Source: Rhodococcus maanshanensis NBRC 100610 (GTDB lineage: Bacteria > Actinomycetota > Actinomycetes > Mycobacteriales > Mycobacteriaceae). Taken from it: DNA of 64,000 nt. Below, piece by piece: positions 46,609-51,327 of the stretch; position 1 is the stretch's first letter; each line of letters opens with the position of its first letter. The position numbers and the translations under genes were made by a program. The notes beneath the pieces were generated by a model. That model was not told where the DNA came from. It did not search any database and was given only the letters and a program-made list of their open reading frames with translations. The stretch spans positions 1 to 64,000 of the forward strand of contig NZ_BCXA01000038.1 of the NCBI RefSeq assembly GCF_001894865.1, written 5' to 3'.

Positions 46609-46648
46609 GTCACATGTGACAGCATGCTGTCACATGTGACAGAATGCT
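46609..46648 (+). promoter_or_regulatory. duplicated MarR operator and leaderless promoter
   Basis: A 20-base unit GTCACATGTGACAGCATGCT (46609-46628) is repeated with one change (C to A) at 46629-46648. Each unit contains the perfect palindrome GTCACATGTGAC, and the two with their spacer make one 32-bp palindrome. Centres are 20 bases apart, about two helical turns. GTGACA (46616-46621) and CAGAAT (46640-46645) are 18 bases apart and could be the promoter, with transcription starting on the ATG at 46652. Confidence 0.92.
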
Positions 46649-46651
46649 GTC

Positions 46652-47278
46652 ATGAAGAAGCAAGTGGTGCACCTGGCCATCTACGACACCCTCGCGGACT
46701 GGGAGACCGGTCACGCGATCGCACACATCAACCAGCGTCAGTGGCAGCGCGAACCGGGTCGCTACTCGGTGTCCACCGTTGGGCTGACCCTGGACCCGGT
46801 GACCACCAGCGGCGGCGTGCGCATGATCCCGGACCTCGTCCTGGCCGATCTCGACCCCGGGGACAGCGCGATGTTGATCCTGCCCGGGGCCGACACCTGG
46901 ATCGGGGGCGACACTTTGGCCCCGTTCGCGGCCAAGGCGCGCAGGTTCCTCGACGCGGGCGTGCCGGTCGCGGCAATCTGCGGGGCGACCTACGGACTGG
47001 CGGGGGAGGGCCTGCTCGACGACCGTGACCACACCAGCAATGTCGCGTACTTCCTGGCCATGACCGGCTACGCGGGCGGCGGCCGGTACCGGGACGAGCC
47101 CGCGGTGACCGATCGGGATCTGATCACCGCAGGCGCGACGAACCCCGTCGAGTTCGCCCGCGAGATCCTGGGTCGCCTCGACGTCTACACCCCGGAGGTG
47201 CTCGACGCCTGGTACCGGCTGTACGCGCGCTCGGATGCGAGCGCCTTCGAGGTGTTGCAGGCGGCGACCGCGCAATGA
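46652..47278 (+). CDS. DJ-1/PfpI family protein
   Basis: 208 residues. The nucleophile Cys is in AAICGATYG (about 110) and the partner Glu in DWETG (about 18), as in DJ-1/PfpI glutamine-amidotransferase-fold proteins. These act as deglycases, chaperones or redox sensors; which applies is open. No ribosome-binding site precedes the ATG, and the promoter places the transcription start on it (leaderless). The stop overlaps the MarR gene (ATGA). A regulator plus DJ-1 pair is a common stress module. Confidence 0.92.
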   Translation: MKKQVVHLAIYDTLADWETGHAIAHINQRQWQREPGRYSVSTVGLTLDPVTTSGGVRMIPDLVLADLDPGDSAMLILPGADTWIGGDTLAPFAAKARRFLDAGVPVAAICGATYGLAGEGLLDDRDHTSNVAYFLAMTGYAGGGRYRDEPAVTDRDLITAGATNPVEFAREILGRLDVYTPEVLDAWYRLYARSDASAFEVLQAATAQ

Positions 47279-47721
47279 CCGAGCCGAAGCCGGCCGAGCT
47301 GCTCTCCGGCGCCGCCCTGACTGCGTTCCGGCTCAACGGCCAGTTCCTGGCGGTGGCGGAGCAGCTGGCTCGGCCGGCCGGTCTCACCGCCGCGTGGTGG
47401 CAGGTGCTCGGCGCTATCGTCGACGAACCCCTGCCGGTCGCGGGCATCGCACGGGCCATGGGCATCACCCGGCAAAGCGTGCAGCGGATAGCGGACCTGA
47501 TGGTGGACAAGGGGTTTGCCGAGTACCTACCCAATCCCGCCCATCGCCGGGCAAAGCTGCTGCAGTTGACCGCCGAGGGTCGGGCGGCGATGTCGCGCAT
47601 CACGCCCGACCAGCGCGCCTTCGCCGACCGGCTCGCGAATCAGCTGGGGGTCGAGGAATTCCGGCGTGCCCTGGATGCGCTGGAGAAGATGTCGGCTGCC
47701 CTCGACACGCTGGCAGATTGA
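47275..47721 (+). CDS. MarR family regulator
   Basis: 148 residues. The winged helix is standard: LTAAWWQVLGAIVDEPLPVAGIARAMGITRQSVQRIADLMVDKGFAEYLPNPAHRRAKLLQLTAEGRA. It is translated from the same mRNA as the DJ-1 gene (ATGA overlap) and is the natural candidate to bind the two palindromes upstream, repressing its own operon. No cysteine suitable for redox sensing is visible, so a small ligand is the likelier signal. Confidence 0.93.
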   Translation: MTEPKPAELLSGAALTAFRLNGQFLAVAEQLARPAGLTAAWWQVLGAIVDEPLPVAGIARAMGITRQSVQRIADLMVDKGFAEYLPNPAHRRAKLLQLTAEGRAAMSRITPDQRAFADRLANQLGVEEFRRALDALEKMSAALDTLAD

Positions 47722-48195: not shown

Positions 48196-49161
48196 ATGAG
48201 TACCCGATACCCGCCGATCGAGCCGTACGAGTCGGGCCTGTTGGAGGTGTCCGACGGTCACCTCCTCTACTGGGAGAGCGTCGGTGACCCCGGCGGGGTG
48301 CCGGTGCTGTTCCTGCACGGCGGCCCTGGCTCCGGCCGCACCGCCGGTGCCCGGCGGTATTTCGACCCGCAGCGGTGCCGGGCGGTGTTGTTCGATCAGC
48401 GTGGCTGCGGCCGCAGTCGCCCGCTCGCGGACGGACCGGACGCGGACCTCGCCTCGAACACCACAGCCCACCTGGTGGGGGACATCGAGCGACTGCGTGA
48501 ACATCTGGGCATCGACCGGTGGATCGTGAGCGGGATGTCGTGGGGAGTGTCGCTGGCACTGGCCTACGCGCAGCAGCACCGGGGCCGGGTGCTGGCGATG
48601 GTGCTCGGTGCGGTGACCGCCGGTACCCGCGTCGAGATCGACTGGATCACCCGCGCGATGGGGCGGGTGTTCCCGCAGGCGTGGGAGCGGTTTGTCGGAG
48701 GCGTCCCCGAGGCCGAGCGCGGCGGGGATCTCGCGGCGGCCTATGCGCGGCTGCTGGCCGACCCCGATGCGGCGGTCCGTGAGGAGGCGGCCAGGAGATG
48801 GTGCGAGTGGGAGGACGCGCACGTGTCCCTGGTGCCCGACTGGTCACCGAGCCGACGGTACTCGGATCCGTTGTTCCGCAGCGTCTTCGCGCGACTGGTC
48901 ACGCACTACTGGAGTCATGACTGCTTTCTCGAGGAGGGGCAGATCATGGCCTCGATGGATCGGATCGCGGCGATTCCGGCGGTTCTCGTGCACGGTCGCT
49001 ACGACGTGTCCGGTCCGTTGGACACCCCGTGGCGGATCGCCGGGGCATGGCCGGCGAGTCGGCTCGTGGTCGTCGACGACGCGGGACACGGCGGCGGTGG
49101 CTTCGTCGCGGAGTTCACAGCCGGCGTCGACGCGATGCTGGCCGGCGTTCCGCATTCCTGA
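48196..49161 (+). CDS. pip: proline iminopeptidase
   Basis: 321 residues, a family-typical length. HGGPGSGRT (oxyanion), FDQRGCGRSRP, the nucleophile elbow GMSWGVSLAL (Ser), VHGRYDVSGP (Asp) and the His in DDAGHGG are all conserved. It releases N-terminal proline from peptides in the cytoplasm (family S33). The ATG at 48196 gives the standard MSTRYPPIEPYESG N-terminus; a longer frame upstream is not supported. Single gene. Confidence 0.92.
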   Translation: MSTRYPPIEPYESGLLEVSDGHLLYWESVGDPGGVPVLFLHGGPGSGRTAGARRYFDPQRCRAVLFDQRGCGRSRPLADGPDADLASNTTAHLVGDIERLREHLGIDRWIVSGMSWGVSLALAYAQQHRGRVLAMVLGAVTAGTRVEIDWITRAMGRVFPQAWERFVGGVPEAERGGDLAAAYARLLADPDAAVREEAARRWCEWEDAHVSLVPDWSPSRRYSDPLFRSVFARLVTHYWSHDCFLEEGQIMASMDRIAAIPAVLVHGRYDVSGPLDTPWRIAGAWPASRLVVVDDAGHGGGGFVAEFTAGVDAMLAGVPHS

Positions 49162-49291
49162 GGCGGATGCCCCGGGAGTGCCCGGTGGTTTGTCCGGAAT
49201 TCGCCCCGGGATTCGGCCGCTTGTGAATTAATGGGTCGTCCCTCGAGTCGGTCGAGGCGACGGCAGATGCCAACGGCAAGAAGGAGTCTCG

Positions 49292-49375
49292 ATGCTGGTG
49301 TTCGACCCGATCTTCTCGTTGTTCAACGAGATCGCCGGTGCGCTCGGTTCTAGCGACTCGAGCGTCGAGACCTAG
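49292..49375 (+). CDS. 27-residue microprotein
   Basis: ATG 49292 has an optimal AAGGAG 6 bases upstream. The peptide is MLVFDPIFSLFNEIAGALGS followed by SDSSVET, so residues 1-19 could form an amphipathic helix (Phe and Ile on one face, Asp, Asn and Glu on the other) with a Ser-rich acidic tail. A strong hairpin terminator follows the stop by 8 bases, so the unit looks like its own transcript. I recognise no family. A secreted or membrane-active peptide, or a small envelope protein like the PorA/PorH class of mycolic-acid bacteria, is possible but unproven. Confidence 0.72.
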   Translation: MLVFDPIFSLFNEIAGALGSSDSSVET

Positions 49376-49383
49376 AACCCCTG

Positions 49384-49427
49384 CGGAAACGGTGGGCCGA
49401 GACGCAAGATTCGACCCACCGTTTCCG
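49384..49427 (+). terminator. hairpin terminator of the microprotein unit
   Basis: CGGAAACGGTGGG (49384-49396), 18-base loop, and its exact complement (49415-49427): a perfect 13-bp stem starting 8 bases after the stop codon. It also stands between this gene and the convergent MBL-hydrolase gene. Confidence 0.88.
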
Positions 49428-49463
49428 TGTCCGGGGTGTCCGCAGTCGCGTCGCCCCGAGCGC

Positions 49464-50270
49464 TCAGATGTCGAAGTACGTGCCGGGTACCGGCGTGTGC
49501 AGTCGTGCGTCGAGCCCGGCAGCCTCGAATGCCGCGGTGAACCGGTCCGCGCCCTCGGTGAAGTGTGCCCAGCCGTCGGTGTGCACGGGGATGACGACGG
49601 ACGGGTCGAGGATCCGGGCCACCTCGACGGCCTCCGCCGACGTCAGCGTTACCGGTACCGGGAAGCGTCCGGGATCCGCGGCCCCGGCGAAGAGGACGGC
49701 GATGTCCACGGGGCCCAGCCGTTCCCCGATCTCACGAGTCAGCTCGACCGACGCGTTGTCGCCCGAGATGTAGATCGTGGGAATTCCCTTGCCGCTGAGC
49801 ACGAATCCCGTGACCGTGCCGGTGATCGGTTCGCATCCGGTGGGGCCGTGCAGCGCCGGGACCGCCGTGACGGTGAGCTCACGGTCGTCCGGGGTGGTGA
49901 TCGTCGTGTGTTCCCACGGCGCGAGTCCGGTCACCCCTGGCAGTCGTCCTGCCGCCTCCGGCGTGGAGAGCACCGTCTCGACCCGGTCCAGCAGCCGCCT
50001 CCCTGCCTCGTCGAGATTGTCCGCGTGCTGATCGTGCGAGAGGAGCACGAGGTCGATGGGGCCGAGTGCCTCCGCGGGCAGTGCGGGCGGGGCCAGCTTG
50101 GTCAGGGTGACGCCGCCCTCGTAGCTGCCCGGCTCGTCGAACGTCGGATCGGTGAGGATGCTCAGCCCGGCCACCCTCAGGTGCAGGGTGGGGCCACCCA
50201 CGAGGACCGCCCGAACTCCCTGCGCCGCTGCGGAACCGGTCGATGTCGTGCTCTCTGTTGTCGAGGTCAT
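49464..50270 (-). CDS. MBL-fold metallo-hydrolase
   Basis: 268 residues. Metal site variant SHDQHADNLD (His about 79-82), with a second His in ALHGPTG, then Asp in ISGDNAS and a final His in PVHTDGW, consistent with an UlaG/RomA-like metallo-beta-lactamase fold, with an actinobacterial variation of HxHxDH. Probably hydrolyses a cyclic or ester substrate; identity unknown. It is divergent from the GlxA-type regulator (70 bases), its probable controller. Confidence 0.86.
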   Translation of the reverse strand: MTSTTESTTSTGSAAAQGVRAVLVGGPTLHLRVAGLSILTDPTFDEPGSYEGGVTLTKLAPPALPAEALGPIDLVLLSHDQHADNLDEAGRRLLDRVETVLSTPEAAGRLPGVTGLAPWEHTTITTPDDRELTVTAVPALHGPTGCEPITGTVTGFVLSGKGIPTIYISGDNASVELTREIGERLGPVDIAVLFAGAADPGRFPVPVTLTSAEAVEVARILDPSVVIPVHTDGWAHFTEGADRFTAAFEAAGLDARLHTPVPGTYFDI

Positions 50271-50340
50271 GCCACAAGCATCGGCCGATCGCCCCGGCGC
50301 GGCCAGTGGCCCGCAGGACAGGTTTCGCTAAGATCGGGCC

Positions 50341-51327
50341 ATGGTCAGATCCGTCGCGGTGATTGCCTTTCCCGATATCAGCCCGTTCCATCTCTCGGTA
50401 CCCTCGCTCGTTTTCGGGCACACGGAGTCCCCCGACACCGCGCCGCGCTATCGGGTCACCATCTGCGCCGAGGATCCGGGCATCCTGCCCACCAACGCCG
50501 GCTACGACATCGCGGTCCGGCGTTCCCTCGACGCGCTGGTCGAGGCGGACACGGTGGTGATCCCGAGCTGGGTGCCTGACAGAAGGCCGTCGGACGCGGT
50601 GCTCGAGGCGATCCGGCGGGCACACGGACGCGGGGCGCGCATCGTCGGACTGTGCCTGGGCGCCTTCCCGATTGCCGATTCCGGGATCGTCGACGGGCGG
50701 GAGGCGGCGACCCACTGGCATGCAGCGGAGACCCTGGCGCGTCGGCATCCGCAGGTGACGGTCCGGTCGGACGTGCTGTGGTCGGATCTCGGCGACGTGG
50801 TGACCTCTGCCGGTACGGCCGCGGCGCTCGACTGCTGCCTGCACCTGGTCCGATCGGACCACGGTGTCTCCGCCGCCACCGCGCTCGCCCGCCGACTGGT
50901 CCTGGCTCCGCATCGCAGCGGCACCCAGGCGCAGTTCATCCCGGTCCCCGTGCGCGAACAGGACGGTGAGGACGAGATCGAGCGGGCGATGGCGTGGGCC
51001 CGGTTGAACCTGTCCGAGCCCGTCGACCTCGATCACTGGTCGCGCGTGGTGCTGATGAGCAGGCGCACCTTCACCCGGCGGTTCCGCGAGCGCACCGGGT
51101 CGAGCCCGCAGCAGTGGTTACTCCTGCAGCGGCTGGATCGGGCGCGCCTGCTGCTGGAAACGACCGAGCTCGGTGTCGACGCGGTGGCCGTCGAGTCGGG
51201 CTTCGGATCGACGGCCTCGCTCCGGCTGCATTTCGGGCGCACGTTCGGAATCAGCCCGTCGGCGCATCGCGCCCTGTTCTCGGCCGGGAGCTCGGAGCAA
51301 TCCACTGCCGACCGGTCACGCGTGTAG
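50341..51327 (+). CDS. GlxA-type AraC regulator with DJ-1/PfpI-like N-domain
   Basis: 328 residues. Residues 1-190 form a DJ-1/PfpI-like sensor domain (GLCLGAFPIADSGI is the nucleophile elbow and retains a Cys). The C-terminal 100 residues are two AraC helix-turn-helices (MSRRTFTRRFRERTGSSPQQWLL, AVESGFGSTASLRLHFGRTFGISP). TAAGAT (50329-50334) ends 6 bases before the ATG, so a leaderless start is likely. Divergent from the MBL-hydrolase gene, which is the likely target. The family controls genes for varied metabolic responses. Confidence 0.9.
   Translation: MVRSVAVIAFPDISPFHLSVPSLVFGHTESPDTAPRYRVTICAEDPGILPTNAGYDIAVRRSLDALVEADTVVIPSWVPDRRPSDAVLEAIRRAHGRGARIVGLCLGAFPIADSGIVDGREAATHWHAAETLARRHPQVTVRSDVLWSDLGDVVTSAGTAAALDCCLHLVRSDHGVSAATALARRLVLAPHRSGTQAQFIPVPVREQDGEDEIERAMAWARLNLSEPVDLDHWSRVVLMSRRTFTRRFRERTGSSPQQWLLLQRLDRARLLLETTELGVDAVAVESGFGSTASLRLHFGRTFGISPSAHRALFSAGSSEQSTADRSRV

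Follow-up and report, generated by a model that had tools for sequence, protein, structure and literature searches.

Does the 27-codon open reading frame that lies between a prolyl aminopeptidase gene and a convergent metallo-beta-lactamase (MBL)-fold gene encode a peptide, and if it does, where does this small gene belong? A preliminary description, made from the DNA letters, had presented it as an orphan amphipathic microprotein with a transcript of its own and a perfect terminator. Here we analysed the frame in the window, i.e. the whole stretch of 64,000 nucleotides in which it lies, in the genome that the window comes from (G000) and in further genomes, five of them from the same genus (G001 to G005). 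The explanation that we favour, and consider very likely, is that the frame arose by dispersed duplication and has stayed intact, its source being a translated microprotein gene that normally sits immediately 3' of a gene for a fadD-type acyl-CoA ligase in this Rhodococcus-like genus. The features to which we refer are, in order along the window:

48196-49161, plus strand: prolyl aminopeptidase gene, the upstream neighbour (TIGR01249, 299.6 bits, cut-off 259.75)
49190-49229, plus strand: upstream segment retained in both G000 and G003 despite different genes upstream, a putative promoter region, its identity no higher than the neutral level
49230-49242, plus strand: leader motif AATGGGTCGTCCC, shared with one arm of the hairpin found before the fadD-linked copies
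49238-49261, plus strand: small leader hairpin (GTCCCTCGA/TCGAGGcGAC), a partial counterpart of the fadD-side hairpin and weak, the z of the region being only -0.5
49278-49286, plus strand: Shine-Dalgarno (SD) sequence AAGAAGGAG, ending 5 nt before the ATG of the frame
49292-49375, plus strand: frame of the 27-residue microprotein MLVFDPIFSLFNEIAGALGSSDSSVET, from the ATG at 49292 to a TAG stop, assigned from sequence, homologues and coding tests
49383-49428, no strand assigned: strong hairpin between the convergent genes, terminator-like without a T-run, from folding, also present in G003
49464-50270, minus strand: gene for an MBL-fold protein (PF12706), downstream and convergent

A short frame with a strong ribosome-binding site and a stable hairpin

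The layout proposed at the outset, a short coding unit with a strong SD sequence and a hairpin at its 3' end, was borne out at 49292-49375 by sequence and by folding. Across the whole window and on both strands, three ATG or GTG frames of 20-40 codons carry AAGGAG within 14 nt before the start, so that an SD sequence and a frame are by themselves not decisive against a chance start; AGAAGGAG precedes the start of this frame only, among the frames of 20-40 codons on both strands of the whole window. The frame is probably overlooked by gene callers.

The hairpin at 49383-49428 has a folding energy of -31.2 kcal/mol against a shuffle mean of -15.6 (z -6.0), with 0 of 200 shuffles as stable, and is one of 11 perfect stems in the window with at least 12 bp and a loop of 3-20. 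It contains no T-run and a consensus terminator scan made no call on it, so that from the "perfect terminator" of the preliminary description we keep the strong stem and give up the intrinsic terminator. As it lies between convergent genes, the hairpin may also serve the MBL gene on the minus strand. In the interval 49100-49500 the sole terminator-like site is at 49172-49185, directly 3' of the upstream gene (one found versus 0.4 expected in shuffles), and the consensus scan of the same interval found no sigma-70-type promoter. Judging from the sequence, a transcript of its own for the frame is plausible.

Related frames behind fadD

The frame is not an orphan. Its own genome contains, at C55, a paralogue of 33 residues directly 3' of fadD, an acyl-CoA ligase gene with an AMP-binding domain (PF00501), and related peptide frames stand behind fadD in all six genomes of the genus that were examined, five of them intact and one, that of G005, frameshifted; we reject a true orphan on the strength of these homologues. 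With the window peptide alone as query, a search of 101 genomes returned an orthologue in G003 and, more weakly, G002 (E 0.002), the paralogue of the own genome (0.003), the G003 paralogue (0.012), G004 (0.43) and G001 (0.89). A further match, at E 1.5 in G082, which belongs to a different family of the order, was inside a 295-codon frame. A trained profile gave E-values of 6e-20 to 1e-21 for the five fadD copies and of 2e-15 and 4e-14 for the two of the window type, all of which were in the training set. When the window peptide was scored against four of the five intact fadD peptides (that of G003 was omitted), the scores were 70, 71, 57 and 55 with shuffle means of 7-10, and in each case 0 of 5000 shuffles did as well.

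The fadD-linked frames have 33 codons and start 78-119 nt past the fadD stop, each with a strong SD sequence of its own. The alignment of all seven intact peptides needs no internal gaps; both window-type forms are shorter by six residues at the N-terminus, and L, V, D, P, N, A, G, S, D and T are the same in every peptide. Peptide length in the family ranges from 27 to 35 residues. Altogether we counted nine copies, two of which, the frameshifted one of G005 and a tandem one of G002, are visibly degenerate and were left out of the shuffle scores, the coding tests and the protein alignments. In G005 (L157, 3' of fadD) the family motif is split between frames, with MSVYDP in one and NQVAIVLGSSDLVVQI in the other, which is either an assembly error or decay. 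In G002, a partial tandem duplicate (L041, 2835-2877, minus strand, and the next frame) consists of a remnant of the fadD C-terminus, REIAAIYS, a hairpin and an SD sequence, followed by a diverged 35-codon frame, MPNPDEIDAPIGTFDHLLAEVFSRIALALGSTDGP.

The hairpin between fadD and the frame matches AATGGGTCG..CGACCCATT in four of the six genomes and is varied in the other two. It covaries weakly: of the 16 consensus pairs, 4 are doubly changed with pairing kept, and the covariation term is unfavourable (+0.86), in an alignment that had several broken cells and included G005, which was omitted from another alignment. Beyond the peptide the sequence differs between genomes, with a convergent EspG-family gene in G000 and, in G001, G004 and G002, different stretches in which Pfam has no match. 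The EspG-family protein (PF14011, associated with ESX secretion) is encoded at L039, 2146-2931, on the plus strand, convergent with the fadD-peptide unit of the own genome.

Searching G000 and G003 for the pattern AATGGGTCGTCYC, we found it only at the leader of the window copy and in both arms of the hairpin on the fadD side; a control search with the reversed pattern had one match in G000 and one in G003. Since the window-type copy has the leader motif in common with the fadD-linked units, it is, as far as sequence can tell, a dispersed duplicate of such a unit, leader included. Our reading of the frame as a duplicate draws jointly on what the sequences show, namely homologous peptides with the SD-frame layout in six of six genomes (one frameshifted), the common leader motif and the amino-acid conservation in the family.

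Conservation of amino acids beyond the bases

Against a null in which the observed substitutions were placed at random, amino-acid similarity was higher at P <0.01 in 19 of 21 pairs, which are not independent of each other, and counting identical residues only, at P <0.05 in 14 of 21; where two sequences differed in length, the comparison covered the 26 codons that both have past the start of the window copy. One of the two failing pairs is G000-G003 at the fadD site, which has 2 differences and no power, and the other is the window copy with its G003 orthologue (8 differences, P 0.09). The G004-G001 pair, likewise with 8 differences, passes (P 0.0025), and the window copy exceeds the null in comparison to all five fadD copies (P <0.01).

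Nei-Gojobori ratios of nonsynonymous to synonymous change were calculated for the fadD-linked copies. Between G004 and G001, 5.0 of 21.7 synonymous and 3.0 of 77.3 nonsynonymous sites are changed (ratio 0.14), dN/dS is about 0.3 for G000-G002, G003-G002 and G000-G003, and the other six fadD pairs range from 0.59 to 0.82 with synonymous sites near saturation. In the +1 frame of the fadD pairs the control values were 0.44-1.11, the true frame being lower in 8 of 10 and the +1 frame as low or lower in 2 of 10, and in the +2 frame they were 1.29-2.94, the true frame being lower in all nine that could be computed. The ratios of 0.59-0.82 and the two pairs in which the +1 frame does as well count against the favoured explanation. 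The peptide evolves far faster than the ligase, with 14 of 33 versus 29 of 320 residues differing between G000 and G004.

For the window copy the picture is different. Compared with its G003 orthologue, the changes amount to 1.5 at 18.8 synonymous sites and 6.5 at 62.2 nonsynonymous sites (Nei-Gojobori dN/dS 1.34), and compared with the fadD copies dN/dS is 0.68-1.17. The preliminary description had named equally common synonymous and nonsynonymous changes in relatives as an argument against a peptide; this is what the direct orthologue pair presents, whereas similarity across the family beats the null as described. Taken as sequence evidence, these comparisons make it clear that the family is coding, with amino acids kept beyond the bases, and probable that it is a genuine, translated family. 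The coding evidence on the window copy by itself is negative or too thin. An RNA element in place of a peptide was rejected, as there is no Rfam match at the gathering threshold in the window and the great majority of pairs favour coding.

The window-type copy in the genus and its possible decay

The window-type copy is present in two of the six genomes, G000 and G003, and the two peptides are 81% identical. The block common to both genomes extends from about 49190 into the MBL gene with 88% identity; going upstream, the number of identical positions per 10-bp block is 6, 10, 10 and 8, then 2, 0, 4 and 3. The upstream gene of G003 is a 265-codon frame with a borderline alpha/beta-hydrolase match (PF12146, 27.6 bits against 27), and judging from sequence the upstream genes of the two genomes may both be of hydrolase fold, yet are different genes. 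That about 100 bp upstream of the frame were kept despite the change of neighbour is compatible with a promoter of its own, but as 88% is the neutral level (19 of 171 fourfold sites of fadD differ), the identity of the block does not demonstrate regulatory conservation. In G005 the MBL gene and an AraC-type gene (by eye) are present and the peptide is absent, and the MBL gene has no match at E 1e-40 in G001, G002 and G004. Over 26 codons, the two window-type copies have 15 and 18 residues identical to the fadD peptide of G002 and 13 and 16 identical to that of G000; as they are slightly nearer to the G002 peptide, the sequences suggest that the duplication is probably not recent.

Some further observations concern the neighbourhood. 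The MBL-fold gene is divergent from an AraC/DJ-1 regulator gene (window 49464-51327), a pair that is kept in G003 and G005 (regulator there identified by eye), and 3' of the MBL gene the next large gene is a different one in each of G000, G003 and G005. Elsewhere in the window, GTCACATGTGAC occurs twice, 8 nt apart, at 46609-46640, just 5' of a frame starting at 46652, and has an operator-like look, and the frame at 47275-47721 resembles a MarR-type regulator by eye.

The fate of the window copy is a question separate from that of the family. It may be under relaxed selection, or it could be a decaying, pseudogene-like duplicate that is intact by chance, so that only the fadD-linked copies matter. 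We regard such decay as a serious possibility, somewhat less probable than its opposite, and as compatible with either of the functions discussed below. The dN/dS values of this copy, together with its neutral-level divergence from G003, speak for decay, as do its presence in only two of six genomes and the degenerate or frameshifted state of two other copies. Against it, start, stop, SD sequence and frame are intact in both G000 and G003, an argument that is weak because a stop arises in only 13% of the null trials on the orthologue pair and an intact frame therefore says little. Also against decay, the comparisons with all five fadD copies lie above the nucleotide null, and of the 13 columns that are invariant among the five fadD-linked peptides, 10 are retained in the window copy and 12 in its G003 orthologue (by eye).

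Predicted shape of the peptide

AlphaFold2, run on the 33-residue form with seven sequences, predicts with moderate confidence a helix over residues 12-23, which starts at the Pro of Asp-Pro, ends at Ala23 and is followed by Gly25-Ser26 (mean pLDDT 73, pTM 0.35). Helices are commonly capped by Asp-Pro in front and by Gly behind. The hydrophobic moment of the window copy is 0.61 compared with a shuffle mean of 0.35 (P 0.001), and it is unusual also in the other forms of the group made up of the window copy, the window-type copy of G003 and the G000 and G002 forms (P 0.001-0.011), but not in G004 (P 0.58), G001 (P 0.89) or the tandem copy of G002 (P 0.11). The amphipathic segment suggested earlier thus stands out from shuffles in the window copy and not family-wide, and the membrane-active, amphipathic character attributed to the peptide is, by hydrophobic moment, no property of the family. 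We therefore rejected a conserved amphipathic helix, which fails in G001 and G004 (the fadD copy of G003 was outside the set for which moments were calculated). Net charge is -2 to -5 and GRAVY 0.14-1.17.

Distribution and family libraries

A profile search of 401 genomes of the family to which the genus belongs yielded seven strong matches, all within the genus, the next best having E 0.03, and many of the weaker matches were inside much longer open frames. In 298 genomes of the order, a sample that overlaps the 401, five matches outside the genus (E 0.0025-0.045) lay in open frames of 128-1287 codons and were judged to be chance, so that a wider distribution was rejected. A plasmid search returned a single match at E 4 (Paraburkholderia), phages returned none, and curated families had no match at cut-off, the best being PF04632 in Pfam (E 0.04; 13 bits, where 30.9 are required) and phrog_28212 in PHROGs (E 0.34); the peptide had no match in NCBIfam or PDB either. 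Based on these library searches, and on literature searches, which cannot find sequences, the family is apparently undescribed, and within the genomes searched it appears so far restricted to this genus of Rhodococcus-like bacteria.

Outside the genus, we read 420 nt 3' of fadD at 14 of at least 80 named loci, the 14 genes being relatives of fadD and not necessarily orthologues; SD-preceded short frames occur in three, none of them peptide-like. The nearest named relatives of fadD, among the matches listed, are those of a Rhodococcus MAG (80%), Rhodococcus RD6.2 and CH91 (73%) and R. triatomae (71%).

What the peptide may do

With a strong SD sequence before every copy, the peptide would be made in quantity, and it would fold into a short helix with Asp-Pro and Gly-Ser as its caps, ending in a small tail of Ser, Asp and Thr. 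The least certain step is its location: it could be associated with the cell envelope or the mycomembrane, in the manner of the signal-less peptides ProtX, PorH and PorA, and acylation would be possible at an invariant Ser or Thr, the Gly-Ser and the terminal Thr being candidate acceptors. A small envelope peptide with a capped helix that works like ProtX, PorH or PorA is, by analogy, our best functional guess, and a tentative one; a resemblance to the very small envelope proteins of mycolic-acid bacteria, suggested in the preliminary description, is thus possible. Against it stand the missing C-terminal Ser, the lack of amphipathicity in G001 and G004, and the nature of the Rhodococcus porins, to which we return below.

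The main rival to an envelope peptide is a FadD-associated microprotein, i.e. a small protein that binds or regulates the acyl-CoA ligase whose gene lies just upstream; of this family the window copy would be a stray duplicate. The constant position argues for it, with the peptide frame right after fadD in all six genomes (five intact) while the sequence 3' of the peptide varies. A strong hairpin, however, separates fadD from the frame, the window copy exists without fadD, and at the 14 fadD loci read outside the genus, with the reservation on orthology made above, the peptide is absent. On the sequence evidence we think such a partner possible, if on the whole unlikely.

Type I toxins are short hydrophobic peptides with stable hairpins, and a toxin-like peptide of this type, duplicated, fast-evolving and sometimes inactivated, would fit the size of the family, its pattern of duplication and degeneration and its hairpins. 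It fits poorly with acidic peptides of the charge and GRAVY given above, in which we see by eye no long uninterrupted hydrophobic segment, or with a window in which no Rfam family is found, and we hold it to be highly improbable. A leader or attenuator peptide controlling a downstream gene, for which the short frame, the strong SD sequence and the hairpin behind it might speak, is rejected as next to impossible because the next gene is convergent, and not co-directional, both at the window (49464-50270, minus strand) and at the fadD site of G000 (EspG family).

Whichever function applies, the apparent orphan frame now belongs to a small gene family whose genomic address is fixed, whose core residues are clear and whose duplication and decay are on record, so that it can be tested. 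If a mycomembrane location or acylation proved true, signal-less envelope peptides, known from Corynebacterium in the papers cited here, would extend to Rhodococcus-like bacteria; if the peptide binds the acyl-CoA ligase, fatty-acid activation would have a microprotein regulator.

Comparison with known systems

Lineage-restricted microproteins are a general class in bacteria. The family described here is like them in being confined to one genus as searched, short, fast-evolving and absent from libraries, and differs from them by its fixed address, 3' of fadD and behind a hairpin, and by its dispersed copy.

In the envelope of related bacteria, the porins PorARc, PorARr and PorBRr of Rhodococcus are, according to PMC9233653, Sec-exported, MspA-like proteins of about 200-270 residues with Sec signal peptides. 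Being envelope proteins of related bacteria is the only likeness; size and Sec signal differ, there is no resemblance to the peptides studied here, and these porins count against the envelope reading.

The peptides of Corynebacterium glutamicum are closer in kind. In PMC5310785, ProtX (cg2875) is described as having 38 residues, no classical signal sequence and no homology to known proteins, and as being mycoloylated at the penultimate Ser37, with Ser38 last. Our family resembles it in its very small size (27-35 residues, below the 38-57 of the known peptides), in an apparent lack of a signal sequence (by eye), in having no match to known protein families and in a mycolic-acid host, the comparison being one of descriptions only. 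It differs in that none of the seven aligned peptides has Ser as the last or next to last residue: the penultimate Ser of PorH (S56) and ProtX (S37) is replaced in 7 of 7 by M, M, M, N, H, E and E, respectively, and the C-terminal residue is an invariant T. PorA and PorH, of 45 and 57 residues and without a characterized signal sequence (PMC5310785), are likewise short, and the apparent lack of a signal sequence in our family (by eye) is a likeness of description; they are longer, form a co-transcribed pair and have a demonstrated channel function. PorA is modified at S15 and PorH at S56 (PMC5310785), so that a penultimate Ser is not universal among mycoloylated peptides. According to PMC11066868, acceptor sites have small residues around them and no strict consensus, and PMC11927696 reports that MytC alone was able to modify PorA in vitro. 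In our alignment, the Ser/Thr candidates are the terminal T and an invariant G-S before [SAT]-D.

Taken furthest, the envelope reading would make these peptides of a Rhodococcus-like genus a new family without signal sequences that may carry mycolate, with members smaller than ProtX, PorH and PorA (38-57 residues, PMC5310785) and a home outside Corynebacterium. The family would be tied to fadD and could spread inside a genome with leader hairpin, ribosome-binding site and peptide travelling together. This full proposal, built on analogy, is a doubtful one.
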